This document shows positions 18,730 through 53,827 of a stretch of 64,000 bases of DNA, piece after piece. The notes below the pieces were generated by a model. The model saw only the letters and a list, made by a program, of their open reading frames with translations. It had not been told where the DNA came from and ran no database searches. The DNA is taken from contig NZ_QXFL01000003.1 of assembly GCF_003584125.1 (NCBI RefSeq), forward strand, positions 248,001-312,000. The letters are read 5' to 3'. Each line of letters begins with the position of its first letter. Position 1 is the stretch's first letter. This DNA comes from Aurantiacibacter zhengii. Lineage in GTDB: Bacteria > Pseudomonadota > Alphaproteobacteria > Sphingomonadales > Sphingomonadaceae. Both the position numbers and the translations under genes were made by a program.

Positions 18730-18811
18730 TCGTTCTCTCCTGTGAATATCTGGGCTGCCCCTTTGTAAGGGCAATGCAAACGCCGCTTGCACGAAGCAGC
18801 TTTTCCGTCTT

Positions 18812-18825
18812 AGGTAGCGCTACCA
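18812..18825. promoter_or_regulatory. LacI-type operator between semialdehyde dehydrogenase and sugar porter
   Basis: AGGTAGCGCTACCA, one base from the perfect palindrome TGGTAGCGCTACCA seen at 37255. It is 83 bases from the dehydrogenase start and about 40 from the transporter start, so one site can control both. The sequence closely resembles the operator described for the LacI-family XylR regulon of Caulobacter. Confidence 0.8.
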
Positions 18826-18866
18826 TAAATAACCGGTGTTGCAACCGGATGGCAGGGAGCGGAAAT

Positions 18867-20285
18867 TTGGACAATGCACGCAACGGCACCAATATGGGGC
18901 TTATATCGGCGATTGTCGCGGTGGCGACGATCGGGGGGTTGCTGTTCGGTTACGACAGCGGCGCGGTAAACGGAACGCAGCAAGGGCTCATCACGGGCTT
19001 CGGCCTTGACGAGACGGCACTGGGCTTCACGGTCGGCTCACTTTTGATCGGCTGTTTCATCGGCGCATTCTTCGCCGGCACCCTGGCCGATGCCATGGGT
19101 CGCCGCAACGTGATGCGAATCGCAGCGGTGATGTTCCTTGTCGCCGCGCTGGCGCAGGGTCTTACGGCCGACCACACGATCTTCGTGATCGCCAGGATCA
19201 TGGGCGGCATGGCGGTGGGCGCTGCCAGCGTGCTCTCGCCAGCCTACATCTCGGAAGTCGCTCCGGCGAATATCCGCGGCCGGATGACCACCGTGCAGCA
19301 GATCATGATCATCACCGGTCTGACCGCGGCGTTCCTGGTCAATTACGTCCTCGCCGCTGCGGCGGGCGAATCGACCAACGAATTCTGGCTGGGAATCGTC
19401 GCCTGGCGCTGGATGTATCTTGCCCAGGCCGTGCCGGCCGCGGTATTCCTGGTTGCGCTGTTCTTCATCCCCGAAAGCCCGCGCTACCTCGTCGCAAAAA
19501 AGCGCGACGAAGAGGCCAGCGGTGTCCTGACCAGCCTCTTTGGCGAGACGGTGGCCAAGGCAAAGTTGCAGGAAATCCGTGCCAGCTTCGTCGGCGACCA
19601 CCGGCCCAGCCTGCGTGATGTTCTCGCGCCCGCGGGGACCAAGGGCTTCCTTGGAATGCGCAAGATCGTCTGGGTTGGCATCATGCTGGCCGTGTTCCAG
19701 CAGCTGGTGGGGATCAACGTGATCTTCTACTACGGTTCGACCCTGTGGCAGCTGGCCGGCTTTACCGAGCAGGATTCGCTGCTGATCAACGTAGTCTCGG
19801 GCGCTGTCTCGATCGCCGCCTGTTTCGTCACCATTGCCGTGATCGACAAGATCGGTCGCAAGCCGCTGCTTCTGATCGGTTCGGCCGGGATGGCGGTCAC
19901 CCTGTTCGTGATGGTCTATGCCTTCAGCCAGGGCGGTCTCGATGCCGAAGGCAACCTGGTGCTGACCGAACAGCTGGGCATCCTCGCCGTTGTCGCGGCG
20001 AACCTCTACGTGATTTTCTTCAACGTCAGCTGGGGCCCGGTCATGTGGGTGATGCTGGGCGAGATGTTCCCCAACCAGATCCGCGGTTCGGCGCTGGCAG
20101 TGGCGGGCTTTTTCCAGTGGTTTGCAAACTACCTGATCGCGCAGACCTTCCCGGTGATGGCTGTCGGCATCGGCCTTGCGGCAAGCTACAGCTTCTATGC
20201 GGTATGCGCCGTCATCAGCTTCTTCCTGGTCCAGGCCTTCATTACGGAGACCAAGGGCAAGGAACTGGAGGAGATGGAGGGCTGA
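18867..20285 (+). CDS. Sugar-porter family MFS transporter (xylose/sugar:proton symporter)
   Basis: An inner-membrane protein of about 470 residues with twelve hydrophobic segments. Sugar-porter signatures are clear: GGLLFGYDSGAVNGTQ near the N-terminus, ADAMGRR after segment 2, PESPRYLV before the central loop, QQLVGINVIFYYG in segment 7 and ETKGKELEE at the C-terminus. XylE-like proton symport of xylose is likely from context. The start is uncertain. I prefer TTG 18867 because GGGAG lies about seven bases before it; ATG 18849 and ATG 18894 are alternatives. The halogenase-like genes follow 41 bases downstream on the same strand. Confidence 0.9.
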   Translation: MDNARNGTNMGLISAIVAVATIGGLLFGYDSGAVNGTQQGLITGFGLDETALGFTVGSLLIGCFIGAFFAGTLADAMGRRNVMRIAAVMFLVAALAQGLTADHTIFVIARIMGGMAVGAASVLSPAYISEVAPANIRGRMTTVQQIMIITGLTAAFLVNYVLAAAAGESTNEFWLGIVAWRWMYLAQAVPAAVFLVALFFIPESPRYLVAKKRDEEASGVLTSLFGETVAKAKLQEIRASFVGDHRPSLRDVLAPAGTKGFLGMRKIVWVGIMLAVFQQLVGINVIFYYGSTLWQLAGFTEQDSLLINVVSGAVSIAACFVTIAVIDKIGRKPLLLIGSAGMAVTLFVMVYAFSQGGLDAEGNLVLTEQLGILAVVAANLYVIFFNVSWGPVMWVMLGEMFPNQIRGSALAVAGFFQWFANYLIAQTFPVMAVGIGLAASYSFYAVCAVISFFLVQAFITETKGKELEEMEG

Positions 20286-20326: not shown

Positions 20327-21847
20327 ATGATCGGTTCCGGTGCGAAACCTGTGCGCGTGGTCGTCCTTGGCGGCGGAACTGCCGGCTGGATGACTGCCGC
20401 CGGGCTCGCCCGGATGCTGGGCGAGCGCGTGACGGTCGACCTGGTGGAAAGCGAGGACATCGGCATCGTCGGAGTGGGCGAGGCGACGCTGCCGCATATC
20501 CGCGGCTTCGTCGAGAAGCTCGGCATCTCCGAGGCCGAGTTCATGCGCGCCACCCATGCCACCTACAAGCTGGGTATCGATTTTCGCGATTTCGGCAGGA
20601 TCGGCGAAAGCTATATCCACCCCTTCGGCTCCTTCGGCGAGGAACTGGGAGGGGTGGGTTTCCACCATTACTGGCTGGAGCTGCAGCGGCGCGGACTGGC
20701 GGGGCCGCTGGGCGATTATTCGTTCTGCGTTGCGGCGGCGCTGGCCAACAAGTTCGCGCCGCCCGCCGACGACATGTCGCTGGCATCCTCCTATGGCTAT
20801 GCCTACCAGTTCGATGCCACGCTGTTCGGCCCCTTCATGCGCGAGTTCGGACTTTCCATCGGCGTAACCCGGCACGAGGGCCTGGTAACCCAGGTCGAAC
20901 GCGACGGCGAAAGCGGCAATGTCACCGCGCTGACGCTGGAGGACGGCCGCCAGCTCGAAGGCGATCTGTTCGTCGACTGCTCGGGCTTTCGCTCGCGGAT
21001 ACTGGGGCAGGAACTTGGCGAGGAGTGGGAGGACTGGACCCACTGGCTGCCGTGCGACCGGGCGGCCGCCATGCCGTGCAAGCACGCCACCGACGAAATC
21101 CGGCCCTACACTACCGCCACCGCCATGCCCGCAGGCTGGCGCTGGCAGATCCCGCTGCAGCATCGCATGGGCAACGGATACGTCTTTTCCAGCGCCTTCA
21201 TCGACGAGGACGAGGCCTGCGAGACCATTCGGAAGGCCAGCGAGGGCGAGCCGCTGGCGGACCCCCGCATCCTGCGCTTCCGCCCCGGGCGGCGGCGCCA
21301 GAGCTGGAGCCACAACGTCATCGCCGTGGGCCTTGCCAGCGGGTTCCTCGAACCGCTCGAATCGACGTCGATCTATCTCGCCCAGATGGCGATCACCTAC
21401 CTCATCGAACTATTTCCGGATGGTGCAATCGATCCTGCCGACCGTGACGAATTCAACCGGCTGGTCGACATGGAATACGACCGCGTCCGCGACTTCCTGA
21501 TCCTGCACTATCACGCCACCACGCGCGACGATTCCGAGTTCTGGAACCACGTGCGCACCATGACCGTGCCCGACAGCCTAGCCGGAAAGATGGAGCTGTG
21601 GCGCCAGGCGGGGCGTATCGAGAAATATTCCGATGGCCTGTTCTACGATGCCAGCTGGATCGCGGTTTACCTGGGCCAGGGCCTGATGCCGGAGCGGCAC
21701 GATCCACGCACCGGGCTGGTCGATCCCGAGCGCCTCAAATCGGCGACCGACCGCCTGCGCAGCGAAATTGCTTCGTCGGTCTCGCAGATGCCTGACCACG
21801 CCGAATACCTGCGCCGCAACAACGCCCGGCTGGCAGAACCGGCGTGA
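20327..21847 (+). CDS. Flavin-dependent tryptophan-halogenase-like protein, copy 1
   Basis: A 506-residue flavoprotein of the tryptophan halogenase family. It keeps the FAD loop GGGTAGW (residues 15-21), the catalytic lysine K81 in ATYKLGIDF and the halogenase signature WRWQIP at 271-276, so it could form hypohalous acid and a lysine haloamine. Related proteins near sugar receptors in Xanthomonas and Brevundimonas-like bacteria show brominating activity on free indole, but their natural substrates are unknown. No flavin reductase gene is nearby. The stop overlaps the GTG of the degenerate paralogue by four bases. The role is unknown; see the corresponding finding. Confidence 0.88.
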   Translation: MIGSGAKPVRVVVLGGGTAGWMTAAGLARMLGERVTVDLVESEDIGIVGVGEATLPHIRGFVEKLGISEAEFMRATHATYKLGIDFRDFGRIGESYIHPFGSFGEELGGVGFHHYWLELQRRGLAGPLGDYSFCVAAALANKFAPPADDMSLASSYGYAYQFDATLFGPFMREFGLSIGVTRHEGLVTQVERDGESGNVTALTLEDGRQLEGDLFVDCSGFRSRILGQELGEEWEDWTHWLPCDRAAAMPCKHATDEIRPYTTATAMPAGWRWQIPLQHRMGNGYVFSSAFIDEDEACETIRKASEGEPLADPRILRFRPGRRRQSWSHNVIAVGLASGFLEPLESTSIYLAQMAITYLIELFPDGAIDPADRDEFNRLVDMEYDRVRDFLILHYHATTRDDSEFWNHVRTMTVPDSLAGKMELWRQAGRIEKYSDGLFYDASWIAVYLGQGLMPERHDPRTGLVDPERLKSATDRLRSEIASSVSQMPDHAEYLRRNNARLAEPA

Positions 21848-23319
21848 GCGAGCCGCGCCAGCCGCCGAGCAGGATCGTCGTCGCCGGGGGAGGGCAGGTC
21901 GGCGTGCTTGCGGCAATCGGCCTGCGCCGCGCCCTGCCGACGTGTGAAGTTGTCGTGATCGGTCTTGCACCCGGCCCTTCCGCTTTTGCGGACCGTGCCT
22001 CATCTTCCCTCCCGTTCACCAACAAGCTGCATGATCGGCTTGGCATCGAAGAGGCGCAGCTCGTCCTCGCTGCCGGGGGCAGTTACCGGCTGGCAACGCG
22101 CTACGCCGGATGGGGCGGAGAGGACCAGCATGGCCTCGTGCCCTATGGCGGCGCGGTCGATCCCGCCTTGCAGACGCGCTTTGCCCAGCAATGGGGCGGC
22201 GGACCGCAGAATATCACCGGGGATCGGCCGGCAGGCTCTATCGCAGAAGTGCTGGTGAACGCGGGCCGCTTTGCCCCGCCGCCGCCCGATGCCGACACGC
22301 CCATATCCGAAGTCGAATATGCGCTGCGCTGGAATCAGCCCGCCTACCACGGCGTGCTGGTCGAACATGCCCAGCGCGCCGGTGTGGCGCATGTCAGCGG
22401 TATGATCTCGGCGATCCAGCTGGACGCCAAAGGGGGTATCGCCAGCATCGCCATCGACGGCCACGGCAATATCGAGGCGGACCTGTTCATCGATTGCACC
22501 GGTCCGGGCGCCGTGCTCGCCTCGGCCTTGCCGGAATTCGACGTGATCGATTGGCAGGACGCCTCGCCGATCCGCCGCGTGCTGGTGGCTCCTCCCGGCC
22601 AGCCAATGCTCCATCTGGAGGACAGGATTTCCCTGCTTCCCGAAGGCTGGCTGTGCGAACTGGCCGGGCGCGACGGCCTGCAGACCATGCTGGCCGTGGG
22701 AGAGGCCGTCGGCGATGATGCCGCGCGCGCGGCCTTGCAGACAGAGCCCGCGGCGTCGCTGCCGGTGTCGCCCGGATGCGCGCGCAAGGCGTGGGTCGGC
22801 AATGTGATTGCGCTCGGCGATGCCGCAGCGCGCTGCGAACCGCTGGGGTTCCTGCCGCTCGATCTGGCGCACCGCCAGCTTGACCTGCTGCTGGAAATGC
22901 TGCCCGGCAAGGAGGTCGTTCCCAGCGAGAGGGCCGAGTACAACCGCCGCGCCGGCCTGATGTTCGATGCCGTGCGCGATCTGCTGGCGATGCACTATGC
23001 CGCGCCGCGCGCGCGCAAGGTCTTCCCGAACGCGCAAACTCCGGCCGCCGTGCAGGTCATGCTGGACCAGTTCGAAAGACGGGGACGCCTGCCTTTCCAG
23101 GAGGAAGCGGCGCTGCTGAAGCAGGAGCAGGCTTCGCTGCTGGCGGCACTGGGCTTCCCGCAGGGGCTATCGACCCGCGAACAGCACCTTGCCCAACAGG
23201 ATATAACCGCTGCCCAGGCCGATTTCGCGGCAAAGTCGCAGGCAGCGCTCGCTTTCGCGCCGCCATACGGCCAGTGGCTCGCTTCGGTCCTTCGGACTAG
23301 CCAAGCGCAGAGCGGATAA
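21844..23319 (+). CDS. Degenerate tryptophan-halogenase-like flavoprotein, probably not a halogenase
   Basis: A 491-residue relative of the neighbouring halogenases. An FAD-type loop remains but is altered (AGGGQVGV instead of GGGTAGW). The catalytic lysine position reads SYRLATRY, with Arg in place of Lys, and the WxWxIP signature is missing (LPEGWLCELAG stands in that region). A second flavin-fold segment, GNVIALGDAAARCEPLGF, is well kept. It may bind FAD and act as a partner, chaperone or different oxidase. The GTG start overlaps the previous stop (GTGA), indicating fixed co-production. It converges with the JmjC-like gene, overlapping 23 bases tail to tail. Confidence 0.8.
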   Translation: MSEPRQPPSRIVVAGGGQVGVLAAIGLRRALPTCEVVVIGLAPGPSAFADRASSSLPFTNKLHDRLGIEEAQLVLAAGGSYRLATRYAGWGGEDQHGLVPYGGAVDPALQTRFAQQWGGGPQNITGDRPAGSIAEVLVNAGRFAPPPPDADTPISEVEYALRWNQPAYHGVLVEHAQRAGVAHVSGMISAIQLDAKGGIASIAIDGHGNIEADLFIDCTGPGAVLASALPEFDVIDWQDASPIRRVLVAPPGQPMLHLEDRISLLPEGWLCELAGRDGLQTMLAVGEAVGDDAARAALQTEPAASLPVSPGCARKAWVGNVIALGDAAARCEPLGFLPLDLAHRQLDLLLEMLPGKEVVPSERAEYNRRAGLMFDAVRDLLAMHYAAPRARKVFPNAQTPAAVQVMLDQFERRGRLPFQEEAALLKQEQASLLAALGFPQGLSTREQHLAQQDITAAQADFAAKSQAALAFAPPYGQWLASVLRTSQAQSG

Positions 23320-24304
23320 TCGACCTGATTCGCGCGAACAGGTCCGGCCCGGGCGGACCGAGCACGCCCTTGGCGTGGTCGGGCAGATGGGCCGCAGGAT
23401 CGCCGCTTTCCTCGAACACGTAATAATCCAGCATCTGCCGCCAGACCTCGCGCTGCTCGGGCGGCAGGTGGCGATAGGCGAGGATCGCATGGAGCAGTGC
23501 ATCGTAGGGACTGCCGTTTCCCTGTGATTGCCCGTCGTTCCACCAGTAATTGGCCAGGATGCTGACCGGCTCGAGCGACTCGACGCCGTGCCACCAGCAA
23601 TAGGGAATATAGATGGCGTCGCCCGGCTCCAGCGTGGCCTGCTCGGCATGTGACCATGCCTCGGCAAAGCGCGGGTGGGCATCAAGGTCCGGCGCGGCGA
23701 GATCGACCATGCTGACGGGAGTACCGGCCGGCGTCAATTCAAGCGGGCCGGGATAGAGATTGGGTGTCTGGTCGGGCGGGAAAAGCGTGAAACGCCGCCT
23801 GCCAGCGACGCAGCACGCGATATTTTCCTTGTTATCGAAATGCGGCGCGACGCGGATGCGGTTGCCGATCCAGATACGCGGGTCGACAGCGGGCAGCAGG
23901 TCCAGCCGGTTTTCGCGGTGGAATCCCGGCAGGAGTTCGCTGATGGTTTCCGCCTGCACCGCCATCGCATGCGGCTCGGCCTCGTCGCTCTCTGTCAGCA
24001 GGTCGGCAAGAAAGGCGTCGAGCCTGCCCTGACCCTGCATGAAATTGAGGCCGGTCATTTGCGGATTATAGAAGAACCTGCCTTGCGCGGCGGGCGGCGC
24101 GGCGATCGCTTTCACTGGCCGCGTGACGCCGGAGGCAAGAATGTATCGGACGATCGCCTCGTCGCCCTGCCTTGCCGCGTGGACGGCGGGCCAATCTGCC
24201 ACCAGCCCGCTTAGAACGACCGGCCTGCCTGCAGCCCTGATCGCCGCCAGCTCTTCACTATCGCGCGGCCGTGCGCGCTCCTCCATGGGCCGGGCCGGTT
24301 TCAT
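23297..24304 (-). CDS. JmjC/cupin-8-like Fe(II)-dependent oxygenase homologue, copy 1
   Basis: A 335-residue cupin-like protein with the FIH/JmjC outline: N-terminal RPVVLSGLVADWPA, then a predicted iron site H155-x-D157 in APHFDNKEN and H239 in YCWWHGVES, within GDAIYIPYCWWHG. That suggests a 2-oxoglutarate-dependent hydroxylase acting on a protein or peptide side chain. The ATG at 24304 overlaps the stop of the preceding halogenase (ATGA), so three genes, 27407-23297, form one coupled minus-strand operon. The residue spacing of the metal site is identical in the paralogue at 50044. No substrate is known. Confidence 0.78.
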   Translation of the reverse strand: MKPARPMEERARPRDSEELAAIRAAGRPVVLSGLVADWPAVHAARQGDEAIVRYILASGVTRPVKAIAAPPAAQGRFFYNPQMTGLNFMQGQGRLDAFLADLLTESDEAEPHAMAVQAETISELLPGFHRENRLDLLPAVDPRIWIGNRIRVAPHFDNKENIACCVAGRRRFTLFPPDQTPNLYPGPLELTPAGTPVSMVDLAAPDLDAHPRFAEAWSHAEQATLEPGDAIYIPYCWWHGVESLEPVSILANYWWNDGQSQGNGSPYDALLHAILAYRHLPPEQREVWRQMLDYYVFEESGDPAAHLPDHAKGVLGPPGPDLFARIRSIIRSALG

Positions 24305-25836
24305 GCCGATGCGCGTTCGCCGACGGGGATTGCGCTGCCCTGCTGTTGCAGGAAATCTTCCTGCGTCGGCATCTGGGATACGGCTTGGGCAATGACTTGC
24401 CGGATATGTTCGAGCCGCTTCTTCGTTTCTGCCTCGTCGAGCATCCCCGCCACGGGGTGATACCCTTTCGGCGTGATGCCCTGGCCTGCCATCACCGCAA
24501 GCCAGCTTGGTTCGGTGAAGAACTCGTCGTGCTCGCGAACCACGCGTCCCGAGCCTTCGAAGATCGCCATTTTTTCGGCCAGTCCGTCGGGCGGTGGCAG
24601 GTTGCGGCAATAGCGCCAGAACTCGCTGTCATCCCGCTCGGTAGACTTGTAATGCAGGACGAGAAAATCGCGGATATCGACATATTCGCGGCGCGTATCG
24701 CGGTTGAAGCGCAGCCTTTCCTGCTCCCCGAAAGCGGTGGTGGGGAAGAAGGCCATGAACCTTGCGATCGACGACTGCACGAGGTGGATTGCGGTCGATT
24801 CTAGCGGCTCGAGGAAGCCGCCGGCCAGTCCCAACGCGACCACGTTCTTTTCCCAGAACTGCGCGCGGTGGCCGGCAGTGAAGCGCAGGTGATTAGGCTC
24901 GGCAAGAGGTTCGCCGTCGAGATTGGCGAGCAGCAGGTCGGTCGCCTTGTCCTGCTCCATATGGGCCGAGGAATAGACGTGTCCGTTGCCGATGCGATGC
25001 TGCAAGGGGATGCGCCACTGCCATCCGGCAGGGCGGGCCGTGGACCGGGTAAGCGGCTGGCGATCGCCGCCCAGCGTGCAGGGCACTGCCACCGCGCGGT
25101 CGCAGGGCAGCCACTTGCTCCAGTCCTCGAACGGCACCTGCAGGGCCTGGCCCAGCAGCAGCGAGCGAAAGCCCGAACAGTCGATGAAAAGCTCGCCCTC
25201 GATCCGGCTGCCGTCTTCCAGCTCAACCGATTCGACGAAGCCGGTCTCGCCGTCCTGGTGGACCTGGATGACCTTGCCCTCGAGGCGAATCACGCCATGC
25301 GCCTCGGCACGGCGACGCAGGAAAGCGGCGTATAGTCTCGCGTCGAACTGGAATGCATAGGCAAGCTTGGACAACGGGGAACGCGGATTGTTCAGTTGCG
25401 GCCAGAAGAACTTGCCCGCACGGCCTGCGGCGGCACCGATCGAATAGGGATCGAGAGGCACCGTTTCTCCCGCCTCCTGCCCGCGCAGCCAGAAATGGTG
25501 GAATTCGATACCCAGCATGTCGAGGCCATAGGTGCCGAACGGGTGGACGTAGGAATGGCCGGGCCGCAGCCAGTCGACGAATTCGATACCCAGCTTGTAG
25601 GTGGCGTGGGTTTCCCGCACGAATTCGTTCTCGTCGATTTCCAGCAGCTTGTGGAAAGAGAGGATCTGCGGGATCGTGGCCTCTCCGACCCCGACCGTGC
25701 CGATGGCGTCGCTTTCCACCAGTTGGATGGAAAGGCCGGGAAATTCGCCGAGGATTTTGGCAATCGCGGCGGCGGCCATCCATCCCGCCGTGCCCCCGCC
25801 GACGATCACGATCTTGCGGATGGGTTCTCCGTTCAA
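24301..25836 (-). CDS. Flavin-dependent tryptophan-halogenase-like protein, copy 2
   Basis: A 511-residue intact member of the family: VGGGTAGWM at 12-20, catalytic K81 in ATYKLGIEF and WQWRIP at 272-277. The start is set at TTG 25836 because it overlaps the TGA of the upstream halogenase (TTGA) and gives the expected N-terminus just before KIVIVGGG; no ATG fits. Copy 3 lies directly upstream and the JmjC-like gene directly downstream, all with four-base overlaps, which points to stoichiometric production. Substrate unknown; relatives near TonB receptors are thought to act on something other than free tryptophan. Confidence 0.87.
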   Translation of the reverse strand: MNGEPIRKIVIVGGGTAGWMAAAAIAKILGEFPGLSIQLVESDAIGTVGVGEATIPQILSFHKLLEIDENEFVRETHATYKLGIEFVDWLRPGHSYVHPFGTYGLDMLGIEFHHFWLRGQEAGETVPLDPYSIGAAAGRAGKFFWPQLNNPRSPLSKLAYAFQFDARLYAAFLRRRAEAHGVIRLEGKVIQVHQDGETGFVESVELEDGSRIEGELFIDCSGFRSLLLGQALQVPFEDWSKWLPCDRAVAVPCTLGGDRQPLTRSTARPAGWQWRIPLQHRIGNGHVYSSAHMEQDKATDLLLANLDGEPLAEPNHLRFTAGHRAQFWEKNVVALGLAGGFLEPLESTAIHLVQSSIARFMAFFPTTAFGEQERLRFNRDTRREYVDIRDFLVLHYKSTERDDSEFWRYCRNLPPPDGLAEKMAIFEGSGRVVREHDEFFTEPSWLAVMAGQGITPKGYHPVAGMLDEAETKKRLEHIRQVIAQAVSQMPTQEDFLQQQGSAIPVGERASA

Positions 25837-27407
25837 GATTGGCCCCCGAAGGCAAATTGCGCAGCTGGTTGCTCCAGGTGCCATGCGCCCGCACGCCGGA
25901 GGAAATCCTCCTGGCTGGGAAGCTGCTGGGCGGTGCTGCGGTAGGTTTCGCGCATCTGTTTCATGGCCTCGGCCACCTTGCGCTCGTCCAGCGTGTCGGC
26001 GATCGGATCGTGGCTCTCAGGGGCGATGTTCTGGCCAAGCATTACCGCGATCCAGCTAGGCTGGGCGAACAGTTCCGCATTCTCCCGGAAGACCCGGCCA
26101 TGAAGTCTCCACAGTTCCATCTTGCGCGTTAGCGAATCGGGCACGGCCATGTCGCGGACGTAGCGCCAGAAATCCGTGTCGCCGCGCTGCGTGGCCTTGT
26201 AGTGCAGGATAATGAAGTCGCGCACGTCCTCATATACGTCGCGCATGCCGCGGTTGTACTCGTCACGTTCAAGGGAGCTGATCGGCTTGTCGGGGAACAG
26301 CGCGAACAGCCTGGCGATGCCGTTCTGGATCATGTGAATGCTGGTGGATTCCAGCGGCTCGATGAAACCCGACGACAGGCCGAGCGAGACGACATTGTGG
26401 CTCCACGCCTTGCGCCGCATGCCGGTCTTGAAGCGAATCGTTCTCGGCTCCGCGAGAGGCTGGCCTTCGAGATTCGCCAGCAGGATGTCCCGCGCTTCAT
26501 CCTCGTCCATGTACTGGCTGCAAAAGACGTGGCCGTTGCCCACACGGTGCTGCAAGGGGATTCGCCACTGCCAGCCCGCCGGCCGCGCGGTTGATCGCGT
26601 GAAGGGATCGGGCGACGCGATGTTGGAGGTCGGCACGGCGATTGCGCGATCGACTGGCAGCCAGTGGCTCCAGTCGTCATAGCCGGTTTCCAGCTCCTCC
26701 TCTATCAGCAGGCCGCGAAAGCCGGAGCAGTCGATGAACAGGTCGCCCTCGATACAGGTGCCATCCGCCAGCTCTATGGCCGATACGTCGCCGCTTTCCC
26801 CGTTGCGGTGAGCGCGGACTATCTGCCCTTCCTTGCGCACAGTGCCCTGGCGCTCGGCCAGCTTGCGCAGGAATGCCGCGTACAGCCCCGCATCGAAATG
26901 GAAGGCGTAGCTGATTTCCGAAATCGGCGTCTTGGCCTGCGCCGAGGGACGACCGAAACGGCCTAGCGCTGCCGCCACCGAACTCATCGAATAGTCCGCG
27001 ATGTCTCCGATGTCTGCAGAGCCGAGTGCCAGTTGTCGCAGGAAAAGCTGGTGAAACTGGATGCCGTGGAAATCGTGGCCATAATCTCCGAAAGGATGGA
27101 AATAGCGATCCCCGATCCGGCCCCAGTCGACGAATTCGATCCCGAGCTTGAAAGTCCCTCGCGTCTCCCTGAGAAACTCGTTTTCCGAGATATCCAGCAT
27201 GGCGTTAAAATTGCGGATCGGCGGAATGGTCGCCTCTCCCACACCCACGGTGCCGATCTGGTCCGATTCGACCAGGGTAATGGTGCGTTTCCCGTCGTCG
27301 AAAAATCGCGACAGGGCCGCTGCCGCCATCCATCCTGCCGTCCCGCCGCCGACGATTACCACGTCCGCTATCCGTCCGGGGGTAACGATACCATTGGATT
27401 GTGACAT
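25833..27407 (-). CDS. Flavin-dependent tryptophan-halogenase-like protein, copy 3
   Basis: A 524-residue family member with FAD loop VGGGTAGWM, catalytic K87 in TFKLGIEF and WQWRIP at 279-284. It is the first gene of the minus-strand operon and stands head to head with the TonB-dependent receptor across 167 bases that contain the operator at 27546. ATG 27407 is chosen because the FAD fold then begins about 15 residues in; a GGAGG lies ten bases upstream. Similarity to copy 2 is strong across most of the length, so these two probably arose by duplication. The intact set of residues argues for an active halogenase. Confidence 0.87.
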   Translation of the reverse strand: MSQSNGIVTPGRIADVVIVGGGTAGWMAAAALSRFFDDGKRTITLVESDQIGTVGVGEATIPPIRNFNAMLDISENEFLRETRGTFKLGIEFVDWGRIGDRYFHPFGDYGHDFHGIQFHQLFLRQLALGSADIGDIADYSMSSVAAALGRFGRPSAQAKTPISEISYAFHFDAGLYAAFLRKLAERQGTVRKEGQIVRAHRNGESGDVSAIELADGTCIEGDLFIDCSGFRGLLIEEELETGYDDWSHWLPVDRAIAVPTSNIASPDPFTRSTARPAGWQWRIPLQHRVGNGHVFCSQYMDEDEARDILLANLEGQPLAEPRTIRFKTGMRRKAWSHNVVSLGLSSGFIEPLESTSIHMIQNGIARLFALFPDKPISSLERDEYNRGMRDVYEDVRDFIILHYKATQRGDTDFWRYVRDMAVPDSLTRKMELWRLHGRVFRENAELFAQPSWIAVMLGQNIAPESHDPIADTLDERKVAEAMKQMRETYRSTAQQLPSQEDFLRRAGAWHLEQPAAQFAFGGQS

Positions 27408-27545
27408 GGTCAGGCAGCCTCCCTCAGACAGGTGCAATACTTTTGCAACAGTTCGCAGCCTAGTGCCCTAACGCACCCTTGCAAAGGCAAGAATCTGCCT
27501 TTATGCATCGACCCAACAGCAAAAAGCTTGCGCTGCTACATTTTT

Positions 27546-27559
27546 TGGTAGCGCTAACA
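27546..27559. promoter_or_regulatory. LacI-type operator between halogenase operon and TonB receptor
   Basis: TGGTAGCGCTAACA matches the 14-base consensus at 13 positions. It is 14 bases before the receptor start and 139 bases before the halogenase start. The site places the receptor, and perhaps the halogenase/JmjC operon, under the same control as the xylan enzymes. Confidence 0.8.
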
Positions 27560-27573
27560 TTGGGAGGGTGACA

Positions 27574-30500
27574 GTGACCATGACGCCAACGCGTTCGGGC
27601 GAAATCTTTGAGCGGGGAATGCCCGCTATCCGCAGTCTTCTGAAGGCCGGTGCGTCTTCTCTTGCACTGGGCGGCCTGCTGGCCTCCCAGGCTGCCATTG
27701 CGCAGGACCAGCCGGAAACCACCGAGATCGAAGGTGTGGAAGAGGACTCGGTTCCGGATAACGCGATCGTCGTGACCGGCATCCGCCAGTCGCTCGCCAA
27801 CTCGCAGGACATCAAGCGCGATGCCGACACGGTTGTCGATGCCATTACCGCCGAAGATATCGGCGCGCTGCCCGACCGTTCGGTGACCGAGGCGCTCCAG
27901 CGCGTTCCCGGTATCGCCATCAACCGTTTCGCCGGTTCCAACGACCCCGACCACTTTTCCGTGGAAGGTTCAGGCGTCGTGGTTCGCGGCCTCAATTTCG
28001 TCCGCTCCGAATTCAACGGTCGCACGGCCTTTGGTGCCGGTGTCGGTGGCCAGGCGCTGAACTTTGCCGACGTGCCTTCCGAACTTCTGGGTTCGGTCGT
28101 CATCAGCAAGAACGCGACCGCCGAGATGATCGAGGGCGGCCTTGCCGGTACGGTCAATCTCAACACGCGCAAGCCATTCGATCGCGACGGCTTCCGCTTC
28201 GGTTTCAGTGCCGAGGCCAACTACGGCGATTTCAGCGAGGAATGGACGCCGACCGGTTCGCTTCTGCTCAGCAACACCTGGGATACCGACATCGGCCGTT
28301 TCGGCCTGCTGGTCAGCGGGTCCTTCTCGCAGATCAAGTCGCGCGCCGACGGTCTGCAGGTTGCCAACTACCAGACGCGTGACGGCATCCTCGTCAACGC
28401 CGCCAACACCGATGGCGTGCAGGTCTGCCGCAACCCGCTGCCTTCCGGCACCGACACCACGACCCTGCCGCCTGCCAACGCCAACTGCGGCAATTTCGGC
28501 AGCGCGGGGGCCGATGGCTTCGCCGACTATGCCGATTTCCGTGTGGCACCTGTAGGCGGCCAGTTCCGCACGCAAAATTTCGACCGCAAGCGCGATGGCC
28601 TTGCCATTTCCGCTCAGTTCGAATCGCTCGATGAGCGTGTTCTTGTCACTGCCGAATTCATTCGCTCCCACACGACCAACCGCTGGGGTGAATACACCTA
28701 CGAAACCGCACCCGACCTGGCCGAATATTCGACCTATCCGATCGGTTGCCAGCAGAACGCCAACGGCCCCAACATCGTCAACGCCGATGGTACGCTGGGC
28801 GATCCGACTGCGCGGGCACAGTGTCCCGTCGGCGGCTTCACCGACTACGTCTACGACGATCGCGGCGTCTTCCAGTCGGGCTACATCGTCAACGCAACGA
28901 ACGGCTGGCGCGGTGCGGTGAACAACTTCGATCCGGCACCGCCAGTGCGCGATGCGGACGGCAACCTGATCAGCGGCGGTGGCTCGCCCTATGTGCCGAT
29001 CGGCGGCCTGCAGCAGTCGCTGGCCCGTCGCCAGGTGAATGACGAGGTCACCAACGAAGACTACAGCATCAACATGCAGATGGAGCTGACCGACCGTCTG
29101 ACCGCCGTGTTCGATGGCCACTATGCCTCGTCGCGCAAGGAAAACCTCGACTTCAGCGTCTTCGGATCGACCTTCGCCGATCAGGAGCTGGATCTGACCG
29201 GCGACTATCCCGTCGTCATTCCGCACAAGCCGCAGTACCTGGGCTATACCTGGTCCGGCCCCAGCCCCGAACTGGGCGACGCGACGGAGCAGGAATACTT
29301 CACCGATCCGCGTTTCCAGTTCTGGCGCGCCGCGATGGACCACATCGAGGACAGCGAGGGCGAGCAGTATGCCTTGCAGGCAGACCTGCAGTACGAACTC
29401 GATGACTATGCCTTCATCCGGCGCGTAAAAGTGGGTGCGCGCTATCAGGATCGTGATCAGACGGTACGCTACACCACCTACAACTGGGGTATGCTGAGCG
29501 AGACCTGGTCGGGAACGCGCCCGATCAATTTCGCCGACGTCGGCAATTCCGAGCGGTACGAGTTCCCGAACTTCTTCCGCGGCGAAGTGCCCGGCCCTCC
29601 GGGAGCGTTCTACTACTCCGGCGACCTGATCGACGGTTACCAGAATTCGGTGGATTTCTTCCAGTCGATCCAGGATCTCTACGCCGGTCAGTACGAAGGT
29701 GCTCCGACCTTCAACTCGCTTGCCCAGCGTCCCGGCGTTATCCCCGGCACGCCCTATCTTCCGGCCGACATCCAGCCGGTGGAGCAGACCGATACGGCCG
29801 CTTACGTGCAGCTCGACTTCGGTAGCGACGAGATTTTCGGCGGCATTCGCTTCGCCGGCAACATCGGCGTCCGCTACGTCAATACGGACCTGACATCGGG
29901 CGGATCGATCGGCGTTCCCAGCACCGCTGCCCTGAACATCGCCGATCCGTTCAGCGTACGCTGCCAGCCGGTCGTACCGCCCAACTCGCCGCCCGGAACG
30001 CCTGCGCAGGTGCCCGGCGGGGTCTGTCTGCTAGGCGCGGATGGCTATGCCGAACTCCAGACATTCGCCGGTGACGGTGTTACCGTGGCGAACGTTGCCG
30101 AGCACGGTTACGACTACTTCCTGCCCAGCCTCAACATGCGCTTCGGCTTGACCGATGACCTGATCTTCCGCCTGGCCGGATCCAAGGTGCTGTCGCGGCC
30201 GGAGAACTCCTATATCCGCAACTTCCTGACCATCGGCCTGGGGACGAGCGGCGAGTTGACGGCGACCGCGGGCAACCCGTTCCTGCTGCCTGCTACCGCA
30301 TGGCAGTTCGACGCCAGCCTCGAATGGTATTTCGCTCGGGTTGGCTCGTTGACCCTCAACGGCTTCTACAAGGAGATCGAGAACTTCTTCTTCCAGGACA
30401 TCACCAGCCGCGATATCACCAGCAACGGTATCACGCGCAACGTGCTGGTCCGTGGTCCGGCGAACTTCGACGGTACCGGTAAGATCAAGGGCTTCGAACT

Positions 30501-31017
30501 CGCGTATCAGCAGACCTACGAGTTCCTGCCGGCCCCGTTCGATGGCTTCGGTATCCAGGCGAACTACACCTACATCGACAGTTCGGGCCTGCCGAACACG
30601 TTCCTCAACGCAGGTACCCCGGTGTCGGAGTCCACGGTGCCGCCAGGAAACCTTCCGCTCGAGCAGTTGTCGAAGCACAACTTCAACTTCACGGGCTTCT
30701 ACGAGAAGGGTCCGATCTCGCTGCGCGGTGCGTACAACTGGCGTTCGCGCTTCCTGTTGACGGCCTCGGACGTGATCTTCCCGTACTACTCGATCTTCAA
30801 CGAGCCGACGGGACAGCTCGACGCGTCGATCTTCGTCAATGTCAGCGATATCTTCGAACTGCCGGGCGATATCAGGATCGGCGTTCAGGGCGTGAACCTG
30901 CTGAACGAGGTGACCGAGACCTCGCAGGCATATTCGGGCGATCCGGATCAGCTGGTGCCCCGTTCGTTCTTCATGAACGATCGCCGGTTCTCGTTCATCC
31001 TGAGAGGCCAGTTCTAG
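27574..31017 (+). CDS. TonB-dependent outer-membrane receptor for xylan oligosaccharides (predicted)
   Basis: A receptor of about 1147 residues that should import oligosaccharides across the outer membrane using TonB energy. After a long signal region (ending QAAIAQDQ) a TonB-box-like AIVVTGIRQSL leads into the plug domain, with DADTVVDAITAEDIGALPD and VSVVG-like strands. The beta barrel ends in a terminal phenylalanine (FILRGQF), as outer-membrane assembly requires. The length and the signature IRQSL...VTEALQRVPG fit the sugar receptors of Caulobacter and sphingomonads. GTG 27574 is preceded at six bases by GGGAGG; GTG 27568 and ATG 27580 are alternatives. Xylan as the ligand is inferred from the neighbours. 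A strong terminator follows. Confidence 0.93.
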   Translation: MTMTPTRSGEIFERGMPAIRSLLKAGASSLALGGLLASQAAIAQDQPETTEIEGVEEDSVPDNAIVVTGIRQSLANSQDIKRDADTVVDAITAEDIGALPDRSVTEALQRVPGIAINRFAGSNDPDHFSVEGSGVVVRGLNFVRSEFNGRTAFGAGVGGQALNFADVPSELLGSVVISKNATAEMIEGGLAGTVNLNTRKPFDRDGFRFGFSAEANYGDFSEEWTPTGSLLLSNTWDTDIGRFGLLVSGSFSQIKSRADGLQVANYQTRDGILVNAANTDGVQVCRNPLPSGTDTTTLPPANANCGNFGSAGADGFADYADFRVAPVGGQFRTQNFDRKRDGLAISAQFESLDERVLVTAEFIRSHTTNRWGEYTYETAPDLAEYSTYPIGCQQNANGPNIVNADGTLGDPTARAQCPVGGFTDYVYDDRGVFQSGYIVNATNGWRGAVNNFDPAPPVRDADGNLISGGGSPYVPIGGLQQSLARRQVNDEVTNEDYSINMQMELTDRLTAVFDGHYASSRKENLDFSVFGSTFADQELDLTGDYPVVIPHKPQYLGYTWSGPSPELGDATEQEYFTDPRFQFWRAAMDHIEDSEGEQYALQADLQYELDDYAFIRRVKVGARYQDRDQTVRYTTYNWGMLSETWSGTRPINFADVGNSERYEFPNFFRGEVPGPPGAFYYSGDLIDGYQNSVDFFQSIQDLYAGQYEGAPTFNSLAQRPGVIPGTPYLPADIQPVEQTDTAAYVQLDFGSDEIFGGIRFAGNIGVRYVNTDLTSGGSIGVPSTAALNIADPFSVRCQPVVPPNSPPGTPAQVPGGVCLLGADGYAELQTFAGDGVTVANVAEHGYDYFLPSLNMRFGLTDDLIFRLAGSKVLSRPENSYIRNFLTIGLGTSGELTATAGNPFLLPATAWQFDASLEWYFARVGSLTLNGFYKEIENFFFQDITSRDITSNGITRNVLVRGPANFDGTGKIKGFELAYQQTYEFLPAPFDGFGIQANYTYIDSSGLPNTFLNAGTPVSESTVPPGNLPLEQLSKHNFNFTGFYEKGPISLRGAYNWRSRFLLTASDVIFPYYSIFNEPTGQLDASIFVNVSDIFELPGDIRIGVQGVNLLNEVTETSQAYSGDPDQLVPRSFFMNDRRFSFILRGQF

Positions 31018-39425: not shown

Positions 39426-40544
39426 ATGCACTTGACCATGGACACGACCACTCAAGGCAGAAAGCAGGGCCGCAAACGCGGTTCGCGCCGCGGCAATGCC
39501 GCTCCGACAATCGCAGATGTTGCGCGCGAGGCGCGCTGTTCCCCCATGACGGTAAGCCGGGTCATCAATGGCGAGGGCAACGTCCGCGAGGAAACGCGCG
39601 AGCAGGTGCTGGAGGCCGTGCGCAAGCTGAACTATTCGCCCAACCGCGCGGCGCGTTCGCTGGCGGGGGGCGAGCAGCTTCGCATCGCGCTGATGTTCGA
39701 CAACCCCTCTTCTTCCTACCTCAGCGAATTTCTGATGGGTGCGCTGGAGGAGGCGACACGCAGCGATATCCACCTCGAGGTGCAAAGCTGCGAGAACGCG
39801 CCGTCCAACGCCACGCTGGTAGGCAAGATGATCGAGGGCGGCATCACCGGCTTCATCCTGCCGCCGCCGCTCTGCGACGATCAGGGCGTGCTCGATCTCA
39901 TCACCGGCGCGGGCGGCATCGCCATCGCGGTCGGCCCCGGCAAGGCCAGCGGATCGAACGGCGCGGTGATGATCGACGAGTACCAGGCCGCTTACGACAT
40001 GACGCGGCATATCATCAATCTCGGTCACGAGCGCATCGGCTTCATCATCGGTAACCCCGAACAGGTCGCCAGCGGGCGACGGTTGAATGGCTATCGCGCG
40101 GCGATGGAGGATGCCGGTCTCACCGTTTCCGACCGGTTGGTGGCGCAGGGCCAGTTCACCTACCGATCCGGCATGGTGGCGGCGGAGAAACTGCTTGCCG
40201 TCGATCCCCAGCCCACCGCCATATTCGCCTCCAACGACGACATGGCCGCGGCTACGGTGGCGGTGGCCCACCGCTGCCATCTCGACGTGCCAAGCGACAT
40301 AACGGTCTGCGGTTTCGACGATACCGACATGGCCAATTCGATCTGGCCCGAATTGACGACGATACGTCAGCCGATCCGGGAAATGACGGCGAAGGCCGTG
40401 AAAATGATCGCCAAGCTCGCGCGCACGCAGCGGCACGGCGACAAACCGGGGCCGGAACACGTCATGTTCCCCTACGAACTGATCCGCCGCAGTTCGGAGG
40501 CCGGGCCCAGTCTGGCGAAATTCGATCGACAAGTGGATACATGA
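39426..40544 (+). CDS. xylR: LacI-family transcriptional regulator of the xylan/xylose genes
   Basis: A 372-residue repressor. The DNA-binding head is TIADVAREARCSPMTVSRVI followed by a hinge (NYSPNRAARSLAGG), and the rest is a periplasmic-binding-protein-like domain for a sugar effector, with the usual IGNPEQVASGRRLNGYRAAM region. A basic extension of about 27 residues precedes the head; ATG 39438 would shorten it by four. It is 31 bases downstream of GH67 and its stop overlaps the start of xylD (ATGA), so it is inside the regulon it should control. It is the only LacI-type protein in the window and therefore the probable reader of all GGTAGCGCTACC sites. The symbol is by analogy with Caulobacter. 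Confidence 0.88.
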   Translation: MHLTMDTTTQGRKQGRKRGSRRGNAAPTIADVAREARCSPMTVSRVINGEGNVREETREQVLEAVRKLNYSPNRAARSLAGGEQLRIALMFDNPSSSYLSEFLMGALEEATRSDIHLEVQSCENAPSNATLVGKMIEGGITGFILPPPLCDDQGVLDLITGAGGIAIAVGPGKASGSNGAVMIDEYQAAYDMTRHIINLGHERIGFIIGNPEQVASGRRLNGYRAAMEDAGLTVSDRLVAQGQFTYRSGMVAAEKLLAVDPQPTAIFASNDDMAAATVAVAHRCHLDVPSDITVCGFDDTDMANSIWPELTTIRQPIREMTAKAVKMIAKLARTQRHGDKPGPEHVMFPYELIRRSSEAGPSLAKFDRQVDT

Positions 40545-51081: not shown

Positions 51082-53607
51082 TCACGAACAGGGCAGCACC
51101 CGCTCTGCATCCATTCCCAGGCGGACTTCGGCCAAGGAAACGTCTCCGCCCCCCTCGGTCTCAAGCACGAACGGAGCCTGGACGCTTGTCATGTCCAGTC
51201 CCTTGTCACGCAGGCAGCGCAGCGGCAGGCCGTAGCGCACGAATTGGCCGGTGGCGGGCAGCTCGACCGCGTTCTCGACCATCTCGCCCGAAGCCGCCCC
51301 CATCGCGATTGCGGCACTTTCGGGCGCTTCGTCCACCTTGAGCGTGAAGAGCAACAGGATATCGGCGTTGGCCTCTCGCGTGATGTCGATGGGGTTGAAC
51401 GTGCTGAGCGACATGGCCGCATCGCCTGAGGCGATATCAAAACGGCGCGCGCCTTCCTGGACCACGTGATTGACCGCAGTCACCGACACGCGGCCATCCA
51501 GCGCAGTTGCCGGTACGGTAGTGATGCGGATCTGGCTGGTGGGGACGGATGGATCGGTGACGTGCAGCGACCATGCCGCTGCGGGCAGGCCATCGGCGAA
51601 CCATACCCGGCTGTCGCTGGCAGATGCCGTGTCGCTAAGCGGCAGCTCCTGCCATGTGCGGGCGGGGCTGGAATAGGTCAGGCCGTACCCATAATCGAAC
51701 AGCGCGCCATCTTCCATGTCGGGGGTAAGCGGCCAGGCAGCGGGAAGCTTGCCGGAAAAGTCGTAACGCGGTGCGCCCTCGGCATCCCCCACCAGCACAT
51801 CGGCGACCCCGCCGCCTTCGCTGCCGGGCAGCCAGGCGACCACGAAAGCATCGGCGGTGTTCAGGGCCGGGTTCACGTAAAGCGGGCGGCCCGTGATCAT
51901 CAGGGCGATCACCGGGATGCCCTGCGATTGCAGGTTGCGCATCGTCTCGTAAGGTCCGGTGAGTTCGGCATCCAGCGCGAGGGTCGCACGGTCGCCCTGG
52001 AACTCCGCATAGGGACGCTCGCCGAATACCACCACGGCGGCATCGGGGCGGGTGGTGAAGCTGCCATCGGGCGACAGTTCGGCGGTTCCGCCGCCTTCTT
52101 CCATCGCAGCGTCCAGCGCCGACCAGATCGAAGTCGCACCGGGGAAGTGCGAATTGTCGATACCGGTTCCCTGCCAGCTCAGCGTCCAGCCGCCGGACTG
52201 CCGGGCGATATCGTCCGCGCCGTCCCCGGCTACCAGCAGGCGGGACCCGCTGGCGAGCGGCAGCGGCCCGTCGTTGCGCAGCAGCACCAGCGACTTGCGC
52301 ACGGCTTCGCGGGCGATCGCGCGATGCTCTGCCGCGCCGAGAAGATCGTAATCCCCCGCAAGCGGCCGGGTGGAGGGGGCGCCGGCTTCGAACAGCCCAA
52401 GCCTTGCCTTGACCTCGAGGATGCGGGTAACCGCTTCGTCGATCCGCTCCATCGGTATCTCGCCGCCGCGGGCACGTTCCAGCAGGTCGTCATAGATGTC
52501 GCGCCATGTATCGGGTGCCATGTACATGTCGATGCCGGCCATCAGCGCTTGTGGGCAGCTTTCGTTTGTACATCCCGCGACCTGTCCATGTGCGTTCCAG
52601 TCGGAAACGACGAAGCCGCCGAAATCGAACCTGTCCTTCAGCACGTCTGTCACCAGCGAGCGGTTGCCGGTCATCTTGACGCCCTGCCAGCTGGAGAAGC
52701 TGACCATGACCGTGGCGACGCCTTCCGCAATAGCCGGGCCATAAGGAAGGCCGTGTATATCGCGCAGGTCCACTTCGCTGATCGAGCTGTCGCCCTGATC
52801 GACGCCGCCGTCCGTTCCGCCATCGGCGAGGAAATGCTTGGTCGATGCGATAACATAGGGACCGGAAAGCAGATCCTGGTTGTTGGGCGGCCCTTGCAGT
52901 CCGCGCACCATCGCCCCGACATAGGAGGCGACGAGTTCGGGGTTGGAGGAATAGCCCTCGTAGGAGCGGCCCCAGCGAAAATCTTGCGGCACGGCCACGG
53001 TCGGCGCAAAGGTCCACTCCTGCCCGGTCACCCGGATTTCGCGCGCGGTAGCAGCGCCGATCCTTTCGATGAGGCCCACGTCGCGCGCTGCGCCCAGACC
53101 GATGTTGTGCGGAAAGATTGTCGCGCCGATGATGTTCGAGTGTCCGTGCACCGCATCGGTACCCCAGATGATGGGAACGCCGACGCCGCCGTCGCTGGTG
53201 TCGACCGATTCGGCATAGAACGCGTCCGCCGCTGCAAGCCAGTCGGGCGCAGGAGCCAGGTCGTTACCGTCCGGGCCGCTGTTGCCGCCCACGAGGATCG
53301 AGCCGAGGTTGTACCGGCGCACATCCTCCGGCGTCACGCAGCACAGGTCCGCCTGTACCAGCTGCCCGATCTTTTCTTCCAGCGTCATCCTGGAGAGCAG
53401 GCCGGCGATCATCGCGGCGTCCTGCGCCGGCACGGTGACCGGATAATCGTATTCGGGCCAGATGGCAGGATCGGCGACCCCGGCCGCCGGGGTTGCCTCT
53501 GCACTCGCCAGGGTGCTCGCACCGGTTTCGGGCAAGGTGCCCGACTGCATGCATGCCGAGAGCGCCAGCGCTGCAACGCTCGACGCCAGAAACCTTGCGA
53601 ACTTCAT
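51082..53607 (-). CDS. GH3 exo-beta-glucosidase/glucan glucohydrolase, predicted lipoprotein (GH3 copy C)
   Basis: An 841-residue GH3 enzyme with a lipobox LSAC (C19). The wording GTDAVHGHSNIIGATIFPHNIGLGA and VSDWNAHGQVAGC (nucleophile D336) places it with the exo-1,3/1,4-beta-glucan glucohydrolases rather than xylosidases. A C-terminal sandwich of about 180 residues, from RTWQELPLSD on, resembles a carbohydrate-binding extension of this subgroup. ATG 53607 follows GAGGGA. It is the first gene of a unit with the JmjC-like gene. A weaker operator match at 53658 lies 50 bases upstream. Confidence 0.91.
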   Translation of the reverse strand: MKFARFLASSVAALALSACMQSGTLPETGASTLASAEATPAAGVADPAIWPEYDYPVTVPAQDAAMIAGLLSRMTLEEKIGQLVQADLCCVTPEDVRRYNLGSILVGGNSGPDGNDLAPAPDWLAAADAFYAESVDTSDGGVGVPIIWGTDAVHGHSNIIGATIFPHNIGLGAARDVGLIERIGAATAREIRVTGQEWTFAPTVAVPQDFRWGRSYEGYSSNPELVASYVGAMVRGLQGPPNNQDLLSGPYVIASTKHFLADGGTDGGVDQGDSSISEVDLRDIHGLPYGPAIAEGVATVMVSFSSWQGVKMTGNRSLVTDVLKDRFDFGGFVVSDWNAHGQVAGCTNESCPQALMAGIDMYMAPDTWRDIYDDLLERARGGEIPMERIDEAVTRILEVKARLGLFEAGAPSTRPLAGDYDLLGAAEHRAIAREAVRKSLVLLRNDGPLPLASGSRLLVAGDGADDIARQSGGWTLSWQGTGIDNSHFPGATSIWSALDAAMEEGGGTAELSPDGSFTTRPDAAVVVFGERPYAEFQGDRATLALDAELTGPYETMRNLQSQGIPVIALMITGRPLYVNPALNTADAFVVAWLPGSEGGGVADVLVGDAEGAPRYDFSGKLPAAWPLTPDMEDGALFDYGYGLTYSSPARTWQELPLSDTASASDSRVWFADGLPAAAWSLHVTDPSVPTSQIRITTVPATALDGRVSVTAVNHVVQEGARRFDIASGDAAMSLSTFNPIDITREANADILLLFTLKVDEAPESAAIAMGAASGEMVENAVELPATGQFVRYGLPLRCLRDKGLDMTSVQAPFVLETEGGGDVSLAEVRLGMDAERVLPCS

Positions 53608-53657
53608 AATCCCTCCCTCGCGCCGACGGGACCAAGCCCGCAGCCATTCATCACGAA

Positions 53658-53671
53658 TGTGAGCGCTACCT
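53658..53671. promoter_or_regulatory. Weak LacI-type operator between GH3 copies C and D
   Basis: TGTGAGCGCTACCT matches the consensus at 11 of 14 positions, with a full core AGCGCTACC. It lies 50 bases before GH3 copy C and 157 before copy D. A second match at 53835 is inside copy D. Confidence 0.55.
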
Positions 53672-53827
53672 TTATGGTATGCGACCGCGCGGTTATTGCC
53701 CGATACGGCCTCCGGCACAAGTGGGGACGTTCGATTTCCTTGTTCATTCTGCGATTGCAGCCTATCGTGACGCCAAAGGCACCGCCTGTTCAAGGGTGGG
53801 CCGGGAACTGGGCAGGGATGGGTTCAC

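Follow-up and report, generated by a model that had tools for sequence, protein, structure and literature searches.

A xylan locus of Aurantiacibacter zhengii joins BrvH-type halogenases, a conserved inactive copy and FIH-like hydroxylases to a TonB-dependent receptor, their possible substrate

A 64,000-nucleotide stretch of the Aurantiacibacter zhengii genome (Sphingomonadaceae; NCBI RefSeq assembly GCF_003584125.1, contig NZ_QXFL01000003.1, positions 248,001 to 312,000 of the forward strand; the whole stretch is called the window here) encodes a TonB-dependent receptor (T) together with three intact halogenases (A, D and E), a degenerate halogenase copy (B) and an FIH-like hydroxylase (C). 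The list of parts and their operators is solid, as are the linkage of such halogenases to receptors and the adjacency of A and B, which is constant and general. The reading we prefer, with a probability of roughly 0.4, is that these genes form a glycan-induced accessory oxidative module that modifies the TonB receptor encoded with it, with A and B working as a pair. The evidence suggests the receptor as substrate, as the best of several readings.

The genes lie in two groups that face each other beside the divergent receptor gene. One group is headed by u1 (18774..20285, +), encoding a XylE-like sugar transporter of the major facilitator superfamily (MFS; Sugar_tr 370 bits) that scores 382 bits against NCBIfam XylE, below the cut-off of 608, and over the cut-off for the sugar porter subfamily; it continues with A (20327..21847, +; Pfam Trp_halogenase 614.5 bits) and B (21844..23319, +; 192 bits). 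The other comprises C, a JmjC/Cupin_8 gene (23297..24304, −; 217 bits for Cupin_8, scanned as 23297-24310), D (24301..25884 from an ATG or 24301..25836 from a TTG, −; 621.5 bits) and E (25833..27407, −; 630.0 bits). T (27568..31017, +) scores 624.8 bits against the curated TIGR01782 cut-off of 310 and so belongs to that family. Profile scores and motifs agree with the first-pass annotation, which had recognized three intact halogenase genes, a degenerate copy and a JmjC gene flanking a TonB receptor. It had also taken every contact within the groups for a four-base stop/start overlap, which is true of A/B (GTGA, 21844-21847) and C/D (ATGA, with the start of C at 24304); for D/E it is so only from TTG 25836 (the overlap is 52 bases from ATG 25884), and B and C meet tail to tail, their ends overlapping by 23 bases. 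The arrangement of u1-A-B facing C-D-E beside divergent T is kept in 14/14 genus loci, with u1 preceding A in all 14 and an E-T gap of 140-219 bases; C is missing from one (G002). One genus locus (L040) has about 4 kb inserted between B and C, the halves of the otherwise constant locus.

Receptor and enzymes had been thought to share an operator. The gap between the divergent genes E and T does carry one (TGGTAGCGCTAACA, 27546..27559), and another (AGGTAGCGCTACCA, 18812..18825) lies in the 5' end of the u1 frame, at the head of u1-A-B; these are two copies of one operator, one per gene group, not a single shared site. The operator-like palindrome has the form TGGTAGCGCTA[AC]CA, with near forms. 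Because the operator falls inside the longest u1 frame, the true start of u1 is probably 18849 or 18894. Both sites recur in 14/14 genus loci, the window included. With up to 3 mismatches allowed, the window gives 15 strand-hits where 2.45 are expected, a number reached in 0 of 100 shuffles, and contains eight sites in all (18812, 27546, 37255, 47151, 49986, 53658, 53835 and 58722). Those other than 18812 and 27546 fall near glycoside hydrolase (GH) genes of families GH3, GH43 and GH5 and near other genes. It is very likely that T, E-D-C and u1-A-B constitute one regulon, and a LacI-family protein encoded at 39426..40544 (+; LacI 66 bits, Peripla_BP_3 118 bits) is likely to read the operator.

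By their motifs, A, D and E are PF04820 halogenases of the BrvH/Xcc4156 type: the GxG motif, the catalytic Lys, WxWxIP and the Glu of EP are each kept in 42/42 A, D and E sequences from 14 loci, and the same motifs are found in BrvH and Xcc4156. Their best PDB matches are BrvH (6frl), Xcc4156 (6y1w) and 9luq, with E-values of 5e-141 to 1e-157 (for A, 6frl at 4e-145). B falls outside this class; it has the predicted fold of a halogenase, but the catalytic motifs are gone. Among its 14 orthologues the catalytic Lys is replaced by Arg in 13 and by Gln in one, WxWxIP is present in 0/14; in B, EPLES is also altered. Both Gly of GxG and the Glu of EP are retained in 14/14, the last Gly of GxGxxG in 10/14, and the orthologues show GD[AS]A. 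The predicted model of B (mean local confidence pLDDT 89.6, predicted template-modelling score pTM 0.89) superimposes on BrvH and Xcc4156 with template-modelling scores of 0.84-0.85, consistent with a retained fold.

Full-length B orthologues occur in 14/37 genus genomes, some of which are incomplete; this includes the genome of the window, and the other 13 are 48-98% identical to its B. In five pairs the ratio of nonsynonymous to synonymous substitution rates is 0.06-0.26 for B, each time exceeding that of A from the same pair (0.05-0.13). Low ratios, constant losses in 14/14 and a constant place after A led us to reject the notion of a decaying pseudogene. Where the first-pass annotation saw only degeneracy, the loss of the catalytic Lys and of WxWxIP stands, and B is better described as a putative conserved partner of A that, judged by its residues, would not be an active halogenase.

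The pairing extends across Proteobacteria. It was counted in newly fetched loci (L153-L188), genus loci (L038-L050) and named loci (L053-L132, the best 80 from a scan of genome contigs of Alpha-, Beta- and Gammaproteobacteria), with only genes above 550 bits entering the count by A-type profile; only the new loci were wholly unused in training that profile. The gene immediately downstream is degenerate for 59/59 A-type genes (new 23/23, genus 13/13, named 23/23) versus 1/183 other active genes (new 0/57, genus 0/26, named 1/100). Judged by motifs instead, 55/56 A-type genes have a degenerate neighbour versus 2/195 others; the single miss (L157) is a frame artefact, its B match starting at base 3, and the second gene of L183 counts as degenerate by motifs and as active by profile. 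At least one degenerate frame, usually second in the row, is carried by 24 of the 27 named loci with at least three halogenase-family frames; of the remainder, L083 and L118 are without one and L055 is cut. In the tree, the gene preceding the degenerate copy belongs to the A-type grade, and the E and D types lie elsewhere. Four genomes have no A-B beside T; in each, an intact and a degenerate gene adjoin each other at another place, at distances ranging from about 8 kb to a different contig. Two further approaches were set aside: a B profile was of no use as a census over 397 genomes, intact halogenases matching it too, and the similarity of A and B distances (r 0.93, 23 loci) was uninformative, A versus the next active gene giving 0.90. 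In Cellvibrio mixtus (L123, 3995-11521), two tandem A-type/degenerate pairs and then one more halogenase lie beside one receptor. L083, L084, L087, L091, L099, L074 and L118 hold a separate group of halogenases with lower scores (318-363 bits) in which Lys and WxW are retained; these lie next to other receptors or at a more distant point of the same locus.

Linkage to the receptor was counted in six of eight genomes searched, with partial PF04820 hits excluded. Counting B copies, the six hold 45 full-length PF04820 genes, and for 41 of them a TIGR01782 receptor scoring above cut-off is found no more than 10 kb away; by a script estimate such receptor surroundings make up 1.8-6.1% of each genome. 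In the reverse view, a halogenase is found within this distance of 20/30 such receptors. T homologues were also sought irrespective of gene context in genomes of the family (249) and the class (289), no more than two candidates being scored in any one genome; an adjacent halogenase was present in 35/36 newly fetched loci, the lone miss being a 450-residue truncated copy. In a six-frame profile search, 72 of the 80 named loci yielded a receptor-like frame, weak in four (L086, L110, L119, L120); no such frame came from L055, L062, L076, L087, L104, L121, L122 and L127, several of which lie on short or cut contigs. A halogenase is also located 1.9 kb from the receptor of L148 (genome G035) and 8.4 kb from the first receptor of L141. 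The named relatives of the locus belong to Sphingomonadales and other Proteobacteria. Of the halogenase, JmjC and receptor association for which a neighbourhood search had been proposed, halogenases beside TonB receptors are thus borne out in Alpha-, Beta- and Gammaproteobacteria, and C is absent from many clusters.

More than one glycan appears to be involved. A second receptor clade, with its halogenase downstream, is accompanied by alpha-glucan genes (alpha-amylase, GH97, GH31, glucokinase or MalF) in 7/11 sampled loci; none were found among the proteins scanned in L092, L113, L081 and L098. Single-halogenase relatives of T have GH3 in 2/3 sampled loci, once with GH16. The neighbouring enzymes point to alpha-glucan, probably beta-glucan, and xylan as the glycans concerned.

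How, then, might such a module work? In the reading we prefer, a LacI-type operator would switch on T together with E, D and C, and the same operator would switch on the sugar transporter, A and its inactive partner B. A would make the hypohalous species and B may provide substrate binding or delivery, the pair being probable. The likely substrate would be the receptor precursor while still unfolded and not yet exported, modified at Trp (tryptophan) residues of the future extracellular ligand vestibule; the receptor may also undergo side-chain hydroxylation by C and by a second FIH-like protein, C2, and the effect could be a tuning of its glycan binding or stability. The more specific form, in which cytoplasmic halogenases with an obligate active/inactive A-B pair halogenate vestibule Trp before export and FIH-like enzymes hydroxylate the receptor as part of its maturation, we regard as unlikely.

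Known systems offer partial precedents. In the available parts of PMC5945002 and PMC7336383, BrvH and Xcc4156 are described as having unknown native substrates and an open active site, which has suggested a peptide. Those parts mention a second halogenase gene just upstream of that for BrvH (PMC5945002) and no inactive partner, and "TonB" occurs 0 times in the main texts of both papers; the window differs from these reports in its three active and one inactive copies, its FIH-like genes and its receptor. MibH (5uao) has the halogenase fold in common with A and E and is less similar to them (E-values of 5e-63 to A and 1e-50 to E); according to the accessible portion of PMC5945002, it chlorinates Trp of its cognate peptide, deschloro NAI-107, and the open site of BrvH has been compared with it. 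No gene for a ribosomally synthesized and post-translationally modified peptide (RiPP) occurs among the window proteins scanned. QhpG and LodB are flavoproteins involved in modifying Trp of a partner protein, QhpG being described in the available part of PMC7876137 as a peptidyl-Trp dihydroxylase resembling flavin adenine dinucleotide-dependent halogenases. A, D and E belong to neither family: their NCBIfam matches are weak and below the curated cut-offs (at best 31.7 versus 240 for QhpG and 24 versus 400 for LodB), and the LodB cut-off is exceeded in 0/21 genomes. TonB uptake loci for maltodextrin and xylan, named MalA and CUT type, likewise hold a TIGR01782 receptor, a LacI regulator, glycoside hydrolases and an MFS transporter. 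In Caulobacter vibrioides, a halogenase gene probably lies next to that of the maltodextrin receptor. In the main text of one paper on such uptake loci (PMC1790865), "halogenase" occurs 0 times. A link between BrvH-type halogenases and TonB receptors was not found among the matches listed in a literature search by titles and the beginnings of abstracts, in which subscription journals are mostly missing, nor in the available parts of PMC5945002, PMC8269204, PMC7336383, PMC1790865, PMC11337851 and PMC7876137. Annotators may well be informally aware of the association.

Evidence bearing on the receptor as substrate comes from its Trp residues, numbered here from GTG 27568 and placed on a predicted model (pLDDT 79.4, pTM 0.78). 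W373 (codon 28684..28686, +) falls in the strand 358-380, W447 (28906..28908, +) in a long loop, 381-480, where model confidence is low, and W640 to W647 (29485..29508, +) in the long loop 636-734; by general TonB-receptor topology, this strand and these loops are probably extracellular. Covariation with the number of active halogenases was scored by independent contrasts over 168 conserved columns in 93 T-family receptors (L075, L128, L058 and L188 excluded; counts for L162, L167, L168 and L107 from whole-genome searches). After these phylogenetic contrasts W447 ranks 1 (r 0.74) and W373 ranks 3 (r 0.56), so that two of the top three columns are Trp, though only 6/168 columns are; W640 ranks 10, W238 30 and W1058 99. 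Summed, four Trp correlate with halogenase count at r 0.77 (93 receptors). In the T family, W640 is present in 87/87 halogenase-linked and 0/6 unlinked receptors, and W647 in 77/87 and 0/6. H129, W373 and W447 are found in 54/57, 52/57 and 50/57 receptors with a degenerate copy in the set, and in 2/30, 1/30 and 4/30 linked receptors without one. A different set of Trp characterizes the alpha-glucan clade and is absent from receptors called unlinked (L148 counted there as unlinked).

A number of observations weigh against the receptor as substrate. The Trp sites were first picked by eye, the scan of all residues coming afterwards; W647 ranks only 100 of 168, and non-Trp columns covary too (Q482 at rank 2, R488 at rank 4), which would be expected were the glycan to change. 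A-B is present without W373 in L109, L070 and L072, and with neither W373 nor W447 in L057 and L068; L124, L077 and L073 have all four Trp despite two active halogenases, and W373 occurs in L183, whose locus lacks an A-type gene. Among 40 loci chosen from 72 listed places of the alpha-glucan clade's kin, W456 of the alpha-glucan-type receptor is found in 30/30 linked and also in 6/10 unlinked receptors. Two of the genomes with these six receptors are without any PF04820 match (G465 and G386, 99-100% complete by the tool's figures) and retain W257 and W456; the halogenase can thus be lost from genomes with an alpha-glucan receptor, and W456 is probably kept there for its own sake, for ligand binding. 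The absence of C from many loci (it is found in 12/29 multi-halogenase loci outside the window's type) counts on the same side. On balance, the Trp evidence supports the receptor as substrate in the T family and opposes it in the alpha-glucan family.

Some narrower proposals did not hold. A mapping of one halogenase to each Trp fails at L109/L070/L072, L124/L077/L073, L057/L068 and L080 (read by eye), and W456 as a halogenation site is weakened by its retention in halogenase-free genomes. Linked receptors carry an average of 2.3-2.8 copies of the motif [NG]W[GNSR], unlinked ones 0.25 (12 receptors); since the motif was picked after inspection, a W-G recognition motif is a lead only.

Among the other explanations, one envisions a small aromatic compound of the cytoplasm as the halogenases' substrate, either indole-like or a signal, with its production linked to growth on the glycan and the receptor only a co-regulated neighbour. 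This is unlikely in our estimate, and it has several points to recommend it: the A-B genes come after that of an inner-membrane transporter, the alpha-glucan receptor retains its Trp in halogenase-free genomes, and BrvH brominates free indole in vitro, weakly (available part of PMC5945002). Set against these are the constant partner of the examined loci, which is the receptor rather than a metabolic pathway, the covariation of T Trp columns with halogenase number, and the three paralogues per receptor, which are hard to square with one small substrate. In the window itself, no flavin reductase and no halometabolite genes (nonribosomal peptide synthetase, polyketide synthase, RiPP or Trp pathway) occur among the 28 proteins, a subset of the open reading frames, scanned with Pfam.

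The covarying Trp may instead be ligand-stacking residues, halogenase number tracking glycan type for an unrelated reason. The probable extracellular position of these residues in a strand and long loops of the model would suit such a role, as do the covariation of other columns and the persistence of W456 without a halogenase; the high proportion of Trp among the top three columns does not, and the linkage of halogenase to receptor is left unexplained. We consider this improbable.

Another co-made protein could be the substrate: the secreted glycoside hydrolases, the TonB/ExbD partners or a small secreted peptide. The operator is also found near several glycoside-hydrolase genes, and FIH-type enzymes are known to act on proteins. 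QhpG-type enzymes do so as well, according to the available part of PMC7876137. This option is nevertheless quite improbable, since the hydrolases vary among loci (GH97, alpha-amylase and GH31; GH3 and GH16; GH43, arabinofuranosidase and GH3) and a peptide gene would hardly fit between E and T, where the gap is 140-219 bases.

Very improbable is action on plant phenolics such as ferulate or coumarate that accompany xylan, a possibility that the first-pass annotation had entertained and that the esterase-type proteins of this xylan/arabinoxylan locus would suit: the halogenase-receptor unit also occurs in alpha-glucan and probable beta-glucan loci, and a phenolic or other ligand-borne substrate is disfavoured because those glycans bear no aromatics. 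What survives of the modification system then proposed is a receptor-tied set of enzymes, of kinds able to modify proteins, with two covarying Trp columns.

The FIH-like genes are a further component of the proposed receptor-modifying module. The nearest PDB match of C is FIH (E-value 5e-16, HxD...H region aligned), and the triad is intact in 13/13 C orthologues in an alignment read by eye. A second gene of this kind, C2 (50044..51051, −; Cupin_8 223 bits), had been overlooked; it shares 43% identity with C and, again by eye, has the iron triad, so that both carry the Fe-binding HxD...H triad on a Cupin_8 domain and count as FIH-like. FIH, JMJD5 and JMJD7 are the closest known proteins, from which C differs in being bacterial and encoded with a TonB receptor. 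C2 starts about 30 bases behind a GH3 gene (51082-53793, −) with operator-like sites 53658 and 53835 near its start, which suggests that C2 may belong to the same regulon; site 49986 lies behind C2 and ahead of the GH5 gene. A modification site for C could not be derived from the C-less locus L048, where T differs at 11 columns, N668D among them, that are otherwise constant in at least 29/30 relatives: too many to single one out. In L161 (14743-15849), gene C is in two pieces of one frame with an in-frame stop between them.

Pfam and NCBIfam scans of its proteins identify the window, part of a 3.8-Mb genome (G000), as a xylan/arabinoxylan locus. Around the halogenases lie two GH43 genes, an alpha-L-arabinofuranosidase, four GH3 and one GH5, along with an acetylesterase-type protein, two ILVD/EDD dehydratases and an aldehyde dehydrogenase; the XylE-like transporter and the LacI regulator belong to the same neighbourhood.

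Close relatives of the BrvH and Xcc-type halogenases are thus tied to one constant neighbour, a glycan receptor, and this gives the family a concrete target. The conserved inactive partner would be missed by an assay of A alone; even if the receptor is not the substrate, the A-B pair is reason for testing both proteins together. Should receptor maturation before export prove true, Proteobacteria would widely possess a system that halogenates proteins in connection with glycan uptake. With the receptor as substrate, bacteria would be halogenating a protein in a programmed way, and polysaccharide uptake by common environmental bacteria would be subject to a new level of control.

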